NCBI GenBank assembly: GCA_029262315.1
Contig: JAJCZP010000019.1
Span: 1-35,169 of the forward strand
Source: Deltaproteobacteria bacterium
Lineage (GTDB): Bacteria > Desulfobacterota > Binatia > UTPRO1
Reading direction: 5' to 3'
Length of the DNA: 35,169 bases
How positions within the stretch are numbered: the first letter of the stretch is position 1; every line of letters starts with the position of its first letter. Below the pieces are notes generated by a model. That model made no database searches, was not told the origin of the DNA, and worked only from the letters and a program-made list of their open reading frames with translations. Shown piece by piece: positions 22,257 to 31,556 of this stretch. The translations under genes and the position numbers were made by a program.

Positions 22257-22327
22257 ACCGATCCCGCGCTGGATCGAGGCCCCGGTGCGTTGAGCCGCAG
22301 CTGTGCCTCATGGTACGGTCCCGGCCC

Positions 22328-23302
22328 ATGGACGTTGCCGTACAGCTTGCAGGGATGACCGCCGACCGTCTTCTCGTCACCGCTCGCGAAACGGAGGAGT
22401 TGGGATTCTCCTCCATATACGTGCCCGATCATTTCGCCGATGAGCCCCCGGGGACGTCGACCTTGAGCGACACGACGCCGATGCCCGAGGCGTTGACCGC
22501 ACTCGCTGGCATCGCCGCGGCGACCTCGCGGGTGCGGATCGGCGGCCACGTGCTGTGCAATCTCTTCCGGCACCCCGCGGTCACCGCGCAGGCCATGGCC
22601 ACGATCGACCAGATTTCGGGCGGGCGCGCGCTCCTCGGTCTGGGCGCGGGCTGGACCAAGAACGAGTTCGACATGACGGGCATCCCGTACCCGGACATCA
22701 AGCCTCGGCTCCGGATGTTGGACGAGGCCCTGCAAGTAATCACCTCGCTCTGGAGTCGGCCTCGAACGACTTTTCGGGGCGAGTTCTACGAGCTCGCGGA
22801 TGCGTTCCTCACCGTGCAGCCGGTCAACCGGCAGCCGCTGCCCGTACTCCTTGGCGGGAGCGGGAAGGGCTTGCTTCGCATAGCGGCGCGCCATGCCGAC
22901 ATCGTGAACGTGATCGTCGAACTCGGAAGCGCGGGCACGGTGCGCATCGAAGAGGTGGCCAAGCTGACGCAAGATGCCTACCAGGCGAAGCTCGATTTCG
23001 TGCGAGCGGAAGCGCAGAAGCTCGGTCGCGAGATCGCGTTGTCATCGACGCTATTCGTGCTTGCGATCACCGACGACGAGGCGGAGGCACAGGCAACGCT
23101 CGAGGGCTTCGCCGCCGGATTCGGGCTCGACCCCGGTCTCGTGGGTTCGCTGCCGATGGCGCTGATCGGGACGCCGGAGCAGTGCGTCGCGGAGTTGCAG
23201 CGCCGCGAGCGCGAGTGGGGTATCAGTCATCTCGTCCTCTCCGCCGCGGGCGGCTCCGAGATGATTCAGCGCTTCGGTCGCGACGTGCTGCCGAGGCTCT
23301 GA
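22328..23302 (+). CDS. LLM-class oxidoreductase, probably F420-dependent
   Basis: This TIM-barrel luciferase-like monooxygenase-family enzyme has 324 residues. The N-terminal DVAVQLAGM, IYVPDHFAD, RVRIGGHVLCNLFRHP, GGRALLGLGAGWTKNEFDMTGI and the C-terminal LIGTPEQCVAELQRRE match the F420-dependent MSMEG_2516-like group. FMN instead of F420 cannot be excluded from sequence alone, and the substrate is not evident. The ATG at 22328 (MDVAVQ) fits the family N-terminus; the ATG at 22310 is an alternative, and neither has a clear Shine-Dalgarno. The VOC gene starts 6 bp after its stop, so they are co-transcribed. Confidence 0.88.
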   Translation: MDVAVQLAGMTADRLLVTARETEELGFSSIYVPDHFADEPPGTSTLSDTTPMPEALTALAGIAAATSRVRIGGHVLCNLFRHPAVTAQAMATIDQISGGRALLGLGAGWTKNEFDMTGIPYPDIKPRLRMLDEALQVITSLWSRPRTTFRGEFYELADAFLTVQPVNRQPLPVLLGGSGKGLLRIAARHADIVNVIVELGSAGTVRIEEVAKLTQDAYQAKLDFVRAEAQKLGREIALSSTLFVLAITDDEAEAQATLEGFAAGFGLDPGLVGSLPMALIGTPEQCVAELQRREREWGISHLVLSAAGGSEMIQRFGRDVLPRL

Positions 23303-23308
23303 GGACCC

Positions 23309-23833
23309 ATGAGCCGTCTGTTCGGACCCATTCGTCAGAACGGCTATGTCGTTCGCGATCTCGAGTCGGCCATGCGGCACTGGGCCGAGGTCCTGCACGT
23401 TGGCCCGTTCTTCCACTTGCCGCACGTTCAGGCCGACGAGTTCGTCTACCGTGGCGAGCCCTCGCCGGTGGATATCTCGATCGGGCTGGCCTTCTCGGGA
23501 GATCTCCAGATCGAGCTCATCCAGCAGCACAACGACGCGCCGAGTGTGTACAAGGATTTCCTCGACGCTGGCCGAGAGGGATTGCAGCACGTGTCGGCCT
23601 GGACGCCTGACTATGAGGACGCGGTCCGTAGGTTCGAAGCGGCGGGGCAGCGGGTCTTGCAGCACGGGACGCTCCCTGGCGGTCTCCGCTTCGCCTATTT
23701 CGATACCGAGCTGCATCCGGGGACCGTCTTCGAGATCTCCAACCTGACGGCGGAACCCTTCAAGCCGATGCTCGACGCGATGCAGGACGCCGCGCGCACC
23801 TGGGATGGAACCGATCCCATTCGAGGCGTGTAG
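23309..23833 (+). CDS. VOC-superfamily (glyoxalase-like) protein
   Basis: This 174-residue small metalloenzyme-fold protein has two beta-alpha-beta-beta-beta modules: NGYVVRDLESAMRHWAEVLHVGPFF at the start and GLQHVSAWTPDYEDAVRRF in the second half. Likely metal ligands are E in IELIQQHN, H in LQHVSAW and E near FEISN. The position usually held by the first His is Gln/Asn (RQNGY), so the metal site may be incomplete or three-coordinate. It is co-transcribed with the LLM gene (6-bp gap). Members include glyoxalases, dioxygenases and epimerases; the reaction here is not known. Confidence 0.85.
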   Translation: MSRLFGPIRQNGYVVRDLESAMRHWAEVLHVGPFFHLPHVQADEFVYRGEPSPVDISIGLAFSGDLQIELIQQHNDAPSVYKDFLDAGREGLQHVSAWTPDYEDAVRRFEAAGQRVLQHGTLPGGLRFAYFDTELHPGTVFEISNLTAEPFKPMLDAMQDAARTWDGTDPIRGV

Positions 23834-27863: not shown

Positions 27864-28496
27864 ATGGAACAGGCACCGAACAGCATGAACGAGACGCCCA
27901 TTCTTCGCCGGCGGGGCACGCGGCACGCTCCAGCCGAAACGCGGCGGGCCCAGATTCTCACCGCGGCGCTCGGATGCTTCGCGCAGTCGGGGTACGAGCG
28001 GGCGACGATCGATCAGGTGGCGCGTGATGCGGGGCTGTCGAAGGGCAGTGTCTATCGCTTCTTCGACAGCAAGGATGCCCTGTTGTTCGCGCTCTTCGAC
28101 GAGTTCGAGCGGCTGGTCCTCGTTGAACTCGACGGCGACGATGGGGACGAAATTCTGCCTAAGCTCGAGCGCACCGGCGCAATGGTCGCCGATCTCCTCG
28201 GTGGCCAGCGGGATCTCATGCAGACCTGGATCGAGTTCTTCGGGCATCGCGGCAGTCGCGAGCGCATGAGTGGGCTCTACACACGAATGCGCCAGCGTAT
28301 TGCGCGTATGGTGCGCGCCGGAGTGCGCTCGGGGGAACTCGCCAGGGTGACACCCGCCGATGCCGCGGCCACGGTCGTAGGCGCCTTCGAGGGCCTGCTG
28401 TTGCAAGCCATGGTCGATCCGGATTTCGATGCGGGCCGACACTATCCCGGCATGTGGCGATTGCTCGAGCGCGGTCTCAAAAGGAGGGACGTCTGA
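27864..28496 (+). CDS. TetR-family transcriptional regulator
   Basis: The 210-residue regulator has an N-terminal HTH (about 25-75; ILTAALGCFAQSGYERATID and then LSKGSVYRFFDSKDALL) and a mostly helical ligand-binding domain. It is the first gene of an operon with the fatty acid desaturase; the TGA overlaps the desaturase ATG (TGATG). The ligand is probably a lipid, fatty acyl compound or related small molecule, an inference from the desaturase. Two Met starts are possible, at 27864 and 27885; the predicted leader is very short for the first. A near-consensus promoter with an operator over its start site lies directly upstream, so autorepression is likely. Confidence 0.94.
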   Translation: MEQAPNSMNETPILRRRGTRHAPAETRRAQILTAALGCFAQSGYERATIDQVARDAGLSKGSVYRFFDSKDALLFALFDEFERLVLVELDGDDGDEILPKLERTGAMVADLLGGQRDLMQTWIEFFGHRGSRERMSGLYTRMRQRIARMVRAGVRSGELARVTPADAAATVVGAFEGLLLQAMVDPDFDAGRHYPGMWRLLERGLKRRDV

Positions 28497-29413
28497 TGCA
28501 GGGCGCTACAACGTACGACACGCGGGCAGAGGAGGGCCGTGCGATCGATCCGACGGCGGGCGAGTCCGAAGCTCTCGCGGCCCAGACGTCGGACGAGTTA
28601 CGGGCGTGGCGGCATCACCTTGTCGCGTTTGCGTGGCCCACGGTCGCGTTCGCGGTCGTCATTCTCGCCGCCTTTGCCACGGTTGTGGCTGTCGCCCTGG
28701 CGGGCGCAATTCCGCTCTGGCTCGGATTCCTGCTGAACGCGGTTGTCGCCTACGCGGCTTTCACGCCGGGACACGAGGCGGCGCACTGGAACATCGCCGG
28801 GCGACACAGTCGGCTCCGTTGGCTGAACGAGGCCTGCGGCTGGATCAGCATGGCGATCATGTTCGACAACTTTGCCGTGCTGCGCGCCGCTCACATGCAG
28901 CATCACGCTCACACGAACGATCCCGAGAAGGACCCCGACTACTTCGTACCCGACTCCGGTGCGATCCGAGTCCTGCTGCGCTCGTTCGTGCTCTTTAGCG
29001 GATATTTCCGCAGCTACCTTGCGGACACCAAGCGCAAGTCGAATGGCCGTCGTCGTCGGCTCGGCGCGCTGGCGTTCTCTGGAAGCTTGTTCGCGATTGC
29101 GATCGGATTGAGCGCCGCCGGCTATCTGCGTGAGGTCCTGGCGCTCTGGGTGCTTCCCGCTCCCGCGGCGTTCCTCATCCTCGCGTTGGTGTTCGACTAC
29201 CTCCCGCACCGACCGCACCGCAGTGTCGATCGCTACACAAACACGAAGATCATTTTATTCCCAGGTCTGAACACACTCCTGCTGGGGCAGAACTACCACC
29301 TGATCCACCACCTCTACCCGGCGGTGCCGTTCTATCGCATGGGCGCGTGTTTCCGTGAGATCAGGCAAGGCCTCGCCGCGCGCGGCGCGCCCATTATCGA
29401 TCTCAGAGGTTAG
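28496..29413 (+). CDS. Membrane fatty acid desaturase-family protein
   Basis: This integral-membrane diiron desaturase/hydroxylase has 305 residues. The three histidine boxes are complete: H93-E-A-A-H97, H133-M-Q-H136-H137 and H268-L-I-H271-H272. TM segments lie at about 40-85 and 175-230 (two in each). The sequence DYLPHRPH between the second and third box suggests the branch that also includes ketolases and hydroxylases, so the reaction may be desaturation, hydroxylation or ketolation of a lipid or carotenoid. The ATG at 28496 follows AGGAGGG and overlaps the TetR stop. It shares the last 4 bp with the convergent KSI-like gene. It is likely controlled by the adjacent TetR repressor. Confidence 0.92.
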   Translation: MQGATTYDTRAEEGRAIDPTAGESEALAAQTSDELRAWRHHLVAFAWPTVAFAVVILAAFATVVAVALAGAIPLWLGFLLNAVVAYAAFTPGHEAAHWNIAGRHSRLRWLNEACGWISMAIMFDNFAVLRAAHMQHHAHTNDPEKDPDYFVPDSGAIRVLLRSFVLFSGYFRSYLADTKRKSNGRRRRLGALAFSGSLFAIAIGLSAAGYLREVLALWVLPAPAAFLILALVFDYLPHRPHRSVDRYTNTKIILFPGLNTLLLGQNYHLIHHLYPAVPFYRMGACFREIRQGLAARGAPIIDLRG

Positions 29414-29796
29414 TCTTCGGGCGTGGCTGGGCGCATCGAGTCCGGGCCCCAGAAGGCGCGCATCGATGTGATGAGTCCCTTCTCGTCGAACGACATGACG
29501 TCGATGACGTCGAGGGCCTGCCGCGCGGGGCCTTCCGGTCCGATGAGGACCAGGAGCGGGGCAGCCGCCTCGGAACCAGCCACCCGGACGGGTCCGGTGA
29601 GCTTCATTGTCACGGTACCCGCGGACGCTTTGTAGAACTCGCTGATCGCGGCACGGCCTTTCAACGGCGCGGTACCTACCGGATCCTCGATTGTTGCGTC
29701 CTCGTGGTACATGGCCACGATCGCTTCGTGGTCACCGCTCGTGAGGAGTTGGGGGTAGCGTTCGAGTACACTGCGGACATGATTGGCGTCGGGCAT
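29410..29796 (-). CDS. Ketosteroid-isomerase-like protein (SnoaL/NTF2 fold), catalytic triad intact
   Basis: This 128-residue cone-shaped NTF2-like protein carries the delta5-3-ketosteroid isomerase catalytic residues at the classic numbers: Y14 (LERYPQL), D38 (TIEDPVG) and D99 (DVIDVMSF). The C-terminal SMRAFWGP also matches. The expected reaction is isomerisation of a double bond in a 3-keto compound, but the fold accepts other substrates. The ATG at 29796 follows GGAG; an upstream TTG at 29808 is less likely. It is the last gene of the leftward 2OG-VOC-KSI operon and shares 4 bp with the convergent desaturase end. Steroid chemistry is plausible, not proven. Confidence 0.9.
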   Translation of the reverse strand: MPDANHVRSVLERYPQLLTSGDHEAIVAMYHEDATIEDPVGTAPLKGRAAISEFYKASAGTVTMKLTGPVRVAGSEAAAPLLVLIGPEGPARQALDVIDVMSFDEKGLITSMRAFWGPDSMRPATPED

Positions 29797-29842
29797 AGTG
29801 GTCTCCAAGTCGATGTGATGAATGTGATGCCAGTGAGCCTCG

Positions 29843-30451
29843 TCAGCTCGCGGGCGTGGGTACGACAGATCTCTTTGGTTTCGGGACGTCGCCCGCGATC
29901 TCCTGGGCCTGCAATTCGATGGCTTGGCCGAGCGTGCCGAGGCCCGAGAACGCGATGTCGGTGGCGATGAACGCCTGCATCAGGTCGTCGGTCATCGATT
30001 GGCCATCGCCAGGGCGCAGCACGATCGGGCCGTCGATGCGCTCCCGTAGGTTTCCCTCGAGTGACTCGATGCGCGCGATGACTTCCTCCAGGGCGGCGAA
30101 ACTCGGATAGCGAATGCCGAAGTGTGGAATGCCATGGGGACGCGTGCGTCGCTTCTCACGATATCCCTCGAGGCTCTCCGCCAATGTCGTATCAGCGCGG
30201 AGCGCCTCGCGGAGAGCGTGCTCGAGCGCCAGCTGCTCGGGGCGGATCTCGGACAGGTAGAGGACGTTGTTCACGATGTCGCGATCCTCGGGATTGATGA
30301 AGGCGAACGCGTAGGTCGGATGTGCGGTCGTGTCGACGACGCATCCCAGGGTACGGAGGAAGGTTGCGGCCAGCTCACGTTCGCCCGGATGATAGAGCAT
30401 TTCGACGTGATTGAGCATAGTGCCGGGGTAGCGTGCGATGGGGGCATGCAT
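29843..30451 (-). CDS. VOC-like protein of unknown function
   Basis: The 202-residue protein shows VOC-type segments: LNHVEMLYHPGERELAATFL near the N-terminus and IPHFGIRYPSFAALEEVI in the middle, each starting with a His where VOC metal ligands lie. The central part is helical (LALEHALREALRADTTLAES) and longer than in typical VOC proteins, and the C-terminus is Pro/Lys-rich. The assignment is by pattern only. The ATG at 30451 follows GGGAG six bases upstream and lies 12 bp after the 2OG oxygenase stop, so the genes are one operon; the KSI-like gene follows 46 bp later. It may process the same substrate, by inference. Confidence 0.72.
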   Translation of the reverse strand: MHAPIARYPGTMLNHVEMLYHPGERELAATFLRTLGCVVDTTAHPTYAFAFINPEDRDIVNNVLYLSEIRPEQLALEHALREALRADTTLAESLEGYREKRRTRPHGIPHFGIRYPSFAALEEVIARIESLEGNLRERIDGPIVLRPGDGQSMTDDLMQAFIATDIAFSGLGTLGQAIELQAQEIAGDVPKPKRSVVPTPAS

Positions 30452-30463
30452 GGGGTCTCCCGG

Positions 30464-31501
30464 TTACGTCTTCTTGCCCGCCGCGCTCGAGCCGAGGCGT
30501 TGCTCGATCGGCGCGATCAACTCTTCCGTGACCGCGCTCGCACCGAGATGAATGAGCATACGCCGCTGGCGCTCGAAGTCCGCGACGCGCACCGAGGGGT
30601 AGGGGCTGCTCGCGCTGGCTGGAACGAGCGGGGCCACCTGGCTGTCGTAGCGCGGGTGCTCGAAGTAGGCGAGGCTGAACCGATCGTCCCCACTGTCGGT
30701 ATCGGTGCCTTCGTGCGGGGGCGCCTGGACCTTGTGGCTGGTCGCCAGCCATCGATCGTTCGTATGGCGCTGCATCAGATCACCGACGTTCACGATCAGC
30801 CCGTCGGGAACTGCGGAGACCTCGTTCCAGTGGTCGTGACGATCGAGGAACAGGAGGTCGGTGCGCGCGCTCCCCGAGATCCAGAGGATCGTGTACAGAT
30901 CGACGTCGTTGTGGGCCATGATCCGGACGTCGCCCGGAACGGTTCGCGGCCCGCCCGGGTAGCGGATCGCCGTTGCGGTTCCGGTACTGCCAAAGAGAGG
31001 GTCGACCAAGGTCCCCTCGGGGAGGGAGAGCGCAAGCTCGAAGAGGATGGCGAGCTTGCGCGAGACGTCCTGCACGCAGCCGAAGTAGGTACGTGCGGCT
31101 TTGTCGAACGCGGCGTGCTCGGCGGGAAACATGTTGGGCGGGAAGTGCTCCCGGCCTTCGGGCGACCCGTAGTACGGATCGGAGGTGTCGCAGTCCCAGG
31201 CCCCAAAGCTGAAGCGCTCCATCCCCATGACGCTGACTTCGTTCGGCGGGACGTTGAAGTAGCCCCGCGCCACGGCGGGCTGCTGGGGTCGTGCCGCACG
31301 ACGCTTGGTCGACGACGGCTCGTCGAAGAAGCCCCGCGCGGTGGTCTCGACGGCGTGCAGCGTGCTCTGCGGAATTCCGTGCCCAACGACGACGAAGGTT
31401 CCGACGTCGGAGAGAGCGGCGTCCACCGCGTGTCCCAGGGCGGTCGCGTCGCGTAGCGCGTCAGCCGAGAGGCCAGTGAGGTCGAGTATCGGGATATCCA
31501 T
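30464..31501 (-). CDS. 2-oxoglutarate/Fe(II)-dependent dioxygenase (isopenicillin-N-synthase-like)
   Basis: This soluble non-heme iron oxygenase has 345 residues. The N-terminal DIOX_N region has IPILDLTGL and GTFVVVGHGIP. The iron triad is H197-x-D199 (MAHNDVD) and H256 (ATSHKVQ), followed by the R-x-S motif (DRFSLAYF) that would bind 2-oxoglutarate. LIVNVGDLMQRHTNDRW is diagnostic of the superfamily. It would hydroxylate, desaturate or cyclise a small molecule; related enzymes act on gibberellins, flavonoids, alkaloids and beta-lactam precursors. It is the first gene of the leftward operon with the VOC-like and KSI-like genes. A candidate promoter lies 27-55 bp upstream of the ATG. Confidence 0.93.
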   Translation of the reverse strand: MDIPILDLTGLSADALRDATALGHAVDAALSDVGTFVVVGHGIPQSTLHAVETTARGFFDEPSSTKRRAARPQQPAVARGYFNVPPNEVSVMGMERFSFGAWDCDTSDPYYGSPEGREHFPPNMFPAEHAAFDKAARTYFGCVQDVSRKLAILFELALSLPEGTLVDPLFGSTGTATAIRYPGGPRTVPGDVRIMAHNDVDLYTILWISGSARTDLLFLDRHDHWNEVSAVPDGLIVNVGDLMQRHTNDRWLATSHKVQAPPHEGTDTDSGDDRFSLAYFEHPRYDSQVAPLVPASASSPYPSVRVADFERQRRMLIHLGASAVTEELIAPIEQRLGSSAAGKKT

Positions 31502-31527: not shown

Positions 31528-31556
31528 ATTGTCATCGGTCCTGCGCAATCTGTCCA
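31528..31556 (-). promoter_or_regulatory. Candidate promoter of the 2OG-VOC-KSI operon
   Basis: On the minus strand TGGACA (31556-31551) and GACAAT (31533-31528) are 17 bp apart, fair matches to -35 and -10 boxes. Transcription would start near 31521, about 20 bases before the ATG at 31501. The rest of the 259-bp gap upstream holds no gene that I can support. Confidence 0.45.

Follow-up and report, generated by a model that had tools for sequence, protein, structure and literature searches.

The 35,169-nucleotide stretch of DNA analysed here (the window) carries on its minus strand three co-directional open reading frames, which encode, in this order, an Fe(II)/2OG oxygenase, a VOC-like protein and a homologue of ketosteroid delta-isomerase (KSI). 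We tentatively propose that they form a compact three-enzyme operon modifying one hydrophobic cyclic ketone, that is, a steroid-, terpenoid- or similar polycyclic substrate. The features that bear on this proposal are collected in Table 1.

Operon organization

The intergenic gaps amount to 12 nt between the oxygenase and VOC-like genes and 46 nt between the VOC-like and KSI genes, and each ATG is preceded by a purine-rich ribosome-binding site. The GC content of the operon is 0.650, that of the window 0.658. At the downstream end the stop codon of the KSI gene overlaps that of a convergent fatty-acid-desaturase-like gene by 4 nt. Upstream of the oxygenase gene a single promoter-type match (TGGACA-17-GACAAT, 9/12) was found by consensus scan; it is weak, one such match being observed against 0.4 expected in shuffles. 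All three frames of the operon described in the initial annotation are present, and the order is kept in a second genome (L003, see below), a synteny which supports the gene set as a real operon.

Table 1. Features of the three-gene operon, in window coordinates.
Feature	Position	Strand	Basis
Sigma-70-like promoter match, single, weak	31528-31556	minus	Consensus scan only, upstream of the 2OG gene
Fe(II)/2OG oxygenase, isopenicillin N synthase-like, 345 aa	31501-30464	minus	Pfam, PDB match, motif residues, L003 orthologue
2OG iron-site codon His197	30913-30911	minus	Motif residues
2OG iron-site codon Asp199	30907-30905	minus	Motif residues
2OG iron-site codon His256	30736-30734	minus	Motif residues
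Probable VOC-fold protein (modest model confidence), unmodelled family, 202 aa	30451-29843	minus	19-member alignment, AF2 models, structural matches
Ketosteroid delta-isomerase homologue, 128 aa from ATG	29796-29410	minus	phmmer against KSI structures, residue-by-residue alignment
KSI active-site codon Tyr14	29757-29755	minus	Alignment
KSI active-site codon Asp38	29685-29683	minus	Alignment
KSI active-site codon Asp99	29502-29500	minus	Alignment

The ketosteroid isomerase homologue

Counted from the ATG at 29796, the alignment places Tyr14, Asp38 and Asp99 of the KSI homologue at exactly those positions of the C. testosteroni numbering, in agreement with the initial annotation. The TTG at 29808, from which that annotation had started the gene, is less likely as the start codon than this ATG, which has a GGAG ribosome-binding site; the gene itself stands. 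The match of the protein to P. putida KSI (PDB code 1w6y) by phmmer has an E-value of 6e-25, with 45% identity and the same length, and a chance occurrence of the triad is therefore ruled out in favour of homology. The best phmmer matches are true steroid delta-isomerases (1e-24 to 1e-25). Besides the triad the active-site network comprises Tyr30, Phe54, Tyr55 and Trp116, so that equivalents of Tyr16, Tyr32, Asp40, Phe56, Tyr57, Asp103 and Trp120 of the P. putida enzyme are all present. The same triad is found in steroid delta-isomerases encoded on sphingomonad plasmids (Novosphingobium ES2-1, Sphingobium herbicidovorans), which are about 40% identical to the window KSI.

The surroundings of these enzymes differ from those found here. 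In contrast to the P. putida and C. testosteroni KSIs, the window KSI lies outside a steroid ring-degradation cluster and shares its operon with the oxygenase and the VOC-like protein, whereas genes for acyl-CoA dehydrogenase, MaoC and thiolase, joined in ES2-1 by FadD3, surround the sphingomonad isomerases; none of these genes adjoins the window operon.

The KSI of the syntenic L003 locus is 53% identical to the window protein and retains every other listed active-site residue but carries a serine in place of Asp99, unlike P. putida KSI at the equivalent position 103. The complete triad proposed earlier thus holds for the window KSI and fails for its syntenic homologue. Among KSIs position 103 (P. 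putida numbering) is naturally Asp, Ser or Glu, and each of the 20 putative KSIs that were assayed, among them Ser103 forms, isomerises 5(10)-estrene-3,17-dione (PMC8754429). Since Ser103 enzymes are active, the exchange was dropped as an argument for an inactive KSI in L003. Because its active site is intact and all 20 assayed KSIs are active (PMC8754429), the window KSI is itself likely to be an active isomerase.

A different use of the KSI scaffold has to be weighed at this point, namely in epoxide opening, cyclisation or dehydration of the MonB or SnoaL type within a 2OG-initiated tailoring or catabolic step. The phmmer search with the window KSI does extend to the polyether epoxide hydrolases MonBI and MonBII (E about 1e-17), and the serine of the L003 homologue could be read in the same direction. 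We nevertheless consider such a reaction unlikely, given that true steroid delta-isomerases are the best matches, that the whole hydrogen-bond network is kept, and that serine occurs naturally at this position in active KSIs (PMC8754429).

In a tree of KSI sequences the window protein clusters with lone KSIs of its own class (85/87 support), and the L003 protein joins next. As the window KSI thus groups with lone enzymes and not with that of L003, the history of the KSI gene, judged from the tree, may differ from that of the two other genes; KSI is also the least conserved operon member between the two loci. A close lone homologue from the window's class (L090:4593-9374) lies beside genes read from the sequence as P450-like and alpha/beta-hydrolase-like, which offers this KSI group another candidate context.

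The Fe(II)/2OG oxygenase

The first gene product matches the Pfam families DIOX_N (E=3e-15) and 2OG-FeII_Oxy (E=6e-9), both above cut-offs, and PDB entry 3oox (E=2.8e-19). Its residues 197, 199 and 256 read His, Asp and His, which together with the Pfam result bears out the earlier assignment as an Fe(II)/2OG oxygenase. The 2OG site is completed by Arg274-Phe275-Ser276, the RxS cosubstrate motif. Both domains, the HxD...H motif and RxS are shared with the DIOX_N/2OG-FeII_Oxy oxygenases, among them 3oox, gibberellin 3-oxidase and isopenicillin N synthase, whereas identity to plasmid-borne homologues is only about 30% or less.

The orthologue in L003 is 65% identical. Among 239 relatives of the L003 genome none beyond that genome itself has a match at E<=1e-40, and among 118 relatives of the window genome, searched at E<=1e-30, the window gene is the sole strong match (1e-222), the next being 1e-48 or weaker. 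No further 2OG orthologue of comparable strength appeared in these 239 and 118 genomes, and the closest one was found only in L003.

The VOC-like protein

Searches of Pfam, NCBIfam and the PDB sequences gave no match for the 202-residue product of the middle gene. A family of 19 members was assembled; they come from the window's class, the genomes of L003 and L004, relatives of these two genomes, and two plasmids. In its alignment His15, His110 and Glu179 are invariant (19/19), and position 68 is Glu in 17 members and Gln in two.

For the window protein itself AlphaFold gave a weak model (pLDDT 55), which at this low confidence yielded no usable Foldseek match. The model of the homologue from L004 is better (pLDDT 63, pTM 0.61) and depicts two beta-alpha-beta-beta-beta modules separated by a helical insertion of about 40-50 residues. 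The first module consists of strand 14-19, helix 24-33 and strands 36-40, 45-49 and 61-66, followed by helices, the second of strand 125-128, helix 131-144 and strands 154-160, 172-179 and 192-198. With this model the top Foldseek matches are VOC proteins (probability 0.99-1.00, E 2.7e-3 to 8e-3), and the rows listed by VIA-align are VOC-fold chains with Z-scores of 7.9-9.7, the best superposing at 2.5 Å over 112 residues.

In VOC metalloenzymes such as glyoxalase I and the extradiol dioxygenases the metal ligands are located on the first and last strand of each module. The conserved residues His15, Glu/Gln68, His110 and Glu179 are placed by the models on strands 1, 4, 5 and 8 and are hence candidate metal ligands.

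Sequence profiles failed to prove VOC membership: the window protein has no Pfam match, the Glyoxalase profile is matched by just three of the 19 members (best E=0.012) and not by the window protein, and hhalign of the family against two shallow VOC sets is not significant. The VOC assignment made for the second gene from the start is accordingly carried by the paired-module fold of the structure models, from which the protein probably adopts a VOC fold, at modest model confidence. With the VOC superfamily (glyoxalase I, FosX, extradiol dioxygenases) it shares the paired-module model and His and Glu residues on the expected strands; in contrast to that superfamily it has no sequence-level match, contains the extra helical insertion and belongs to a family absent from Pfam and NCBIfam.

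The family has two distant homologues on plasmids, and none was found in phages or viral contigs. In genome G717 the homologue (L039:2782-3406) is read in two frames that are separated by an ambiguous base; either the gene is broken or the assembly is in error.

Conservation of the gene set

L003 (JAPPPQ010000016.1) is a metagenome-assembled genome labelled 'Deltaproteobacteria' which the tree tool assigns to Myxococcota. It carries the oxygenase, VOC-like and KSI genes in the same order as the window, spaced 10 and 16 nt apart. As no 16S gene was found in the window genome, the genomes were compared by RpoB, leaving out the mis-framed row of genome G543. RpoB of the window genome is 64.6% identical to that of L003, compared with 74.4% within the window's class. 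The VOC-like protein (70%) and the oxygenase (65%) are therefore conserved as well as RpoB between the two genomes.

Because the same genes occur in the same order in so distant a genome, the set has probably been selected as a unit. The RpoB-like conservation of the oxygenase and VOC-like proteins, taken with the patchy distribution of the genes, suggests horizontal transfer or strong retention of the set as a unit. Among the loci examined all three genes occur together only in the window and L003, and no nucleotide-level relatives of the operon were found on plasmids. The expectation that homologues would not sit in unrelated contexts was borne out in part: KSI and VOC-like homologues also occur elsewhere alone, while the set is intact in L003.

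These contexts bear on the question of whether the three enzymes share a substrate at all. They might be general detoxification or lipid-modifying enzymes that are loosely co-transcribed, as the unrelated contexts of KSI and VOC-like homologues and the lack of a pathway among the nearby window genes would permit. The exact gene order across a large phylogenetic distance, with gaps of 10-46 nt, speaks against this reading, which we regard as distinctly improbable.

Neighbouring genes

Neighbour genes in the other loci were called by crude GC-position scoring, so that some genes may be missing from the lists or wrongly placed in them. The window genes that were scanned form no catabolic cluster for steroids or terpenoids around the operon; FadD3, acyl-CoA dehydrogenases, thiolases and KstD are absent from them, and none was seen around the L003 operon.

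Convergent with the operon, a TetR (ScbR-like) regulator gene overlaps the fatty-acid-desaturase-family gene (27864-29413), whose product matches the beta-carotene hydroxylase CrtR at E=3e-40, below its cut-off. About 5.6 kb from the operon the window encodes a Glyoxalase_4 protein (23309-23833), beside a luciferase-like monooxygenase (22310-23302). The Glyoxalase_4 protein is related to the VOC partners at two loci from relatives of the Myxococcota genome (L029:8011-9240 and L035:7067-8223), where a Glyoxalase_4 VOC gene follows immediately on the VOC-like gene with an overlap or a few nt between them, an arrangement which suggests a two-VOC partnership.

In L003 the region upstream of the operon (L003:1092-6963) encodes 2-oxoacid:ferredoxin oxidoreductase subunits and a TonB receptor; 13 nt before the oxygenase gene lies a 3-hydroxyisobutyrate-dehydrogenase-like gene. 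It is possible that these genes provide import and further steps of the operon's pathway.

In two further loci, L038 and the R. wittichii MPO218 plasmid pUPO218 (L006), the VOC-like gene adjoins a TauD oxygenase gene, an independent link of the VOC-like family to 2OG chemistry. The plasmid array (L006:10365-18654) encodes an AMP ligase, a thiolase, the TauD oxygenase, the VOC-like protein (33% identical), an NADH:flavin oxidoreductase and a SnoaL_4 protein, and has the look of a catabolic cluster that is still uncharacterised. In the paper on the plasmid's host, R. wittichii MPO218, the VOC-like gene is not discussed under its locus tag.

Such associations raise the question of whether the oxygenase and the VOC-like protein alone form the core, the latter processing or binding the oxygenase product or serving the oxygenase, with KSI as an accessory recruited in this lineage. 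The VOC-like family is found next to TauD in L006 and L038 and next to a DIOX_N-type oxygenase in the window and L003, both proteins are more conserved than KSI, and the KSI tree separates the window protein from that of L003. Most VOC-like homologues, however, have no adjoining 2OG gene, and KSI is still present in L003 in the same order, which leaves such a two-protein core improbable.

Proposed function

In the three-enzyme operon tentatively proposed above, the 2OG enzyme would hydroxylate or desaturate the cyclic-ketone substrate, and KSI would move a beta,gamma double bond into conjugation with the ketone, with Asp38 as the base and Tyr14 and Asp99 forming the oxyanion hole. The VOC protein would be a mononuclear-metal enzyme; it would take up the oxygenated intermediate for an isomerisation, a hydrolysis or, as in extradiol dioxygenases, a C-C cleavage. 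Against this account speak the lack of a steroid or terpenoid catabolic cluster among the window genes scanned around the operon, the restriction of the full set to two genomes, the lower conservation and possibly separate history of KSI, and the modest confidence of the VOC models (pLDDT 55 and 63). Rather doubtful is the more far-reaching proposal of an undescribed pathway module of uncultured bacteria that has moved as a unit between distant lineages and whose members, a 2OG oxygenase, a VOC metalloenzyme of a new family recurrently linked to 2OG oxygenases and a true KSI, oxidise and rearrange a ketone resembling a steroid or terpenoid.

All three enzyme types are known, and the 2OG and KSI families are well known; the VOC-like family is without a curated model. 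In agreement with the initial annotation, which knew of no named pathway with this gene set, searches of open-access papers found no described pathway or other report of the combination of 2OG oxygenase, VOC protein and KSI. The operon is small enough to be expressed whole, and for KSI a standard spectrophotometric assay is available. If the proposal is true, an anonymous VOC-fold family would be tied to the chemistry of 2OG enzymes, and new reactions of steroids or terpenoids might come to light in uncultured bacteria.
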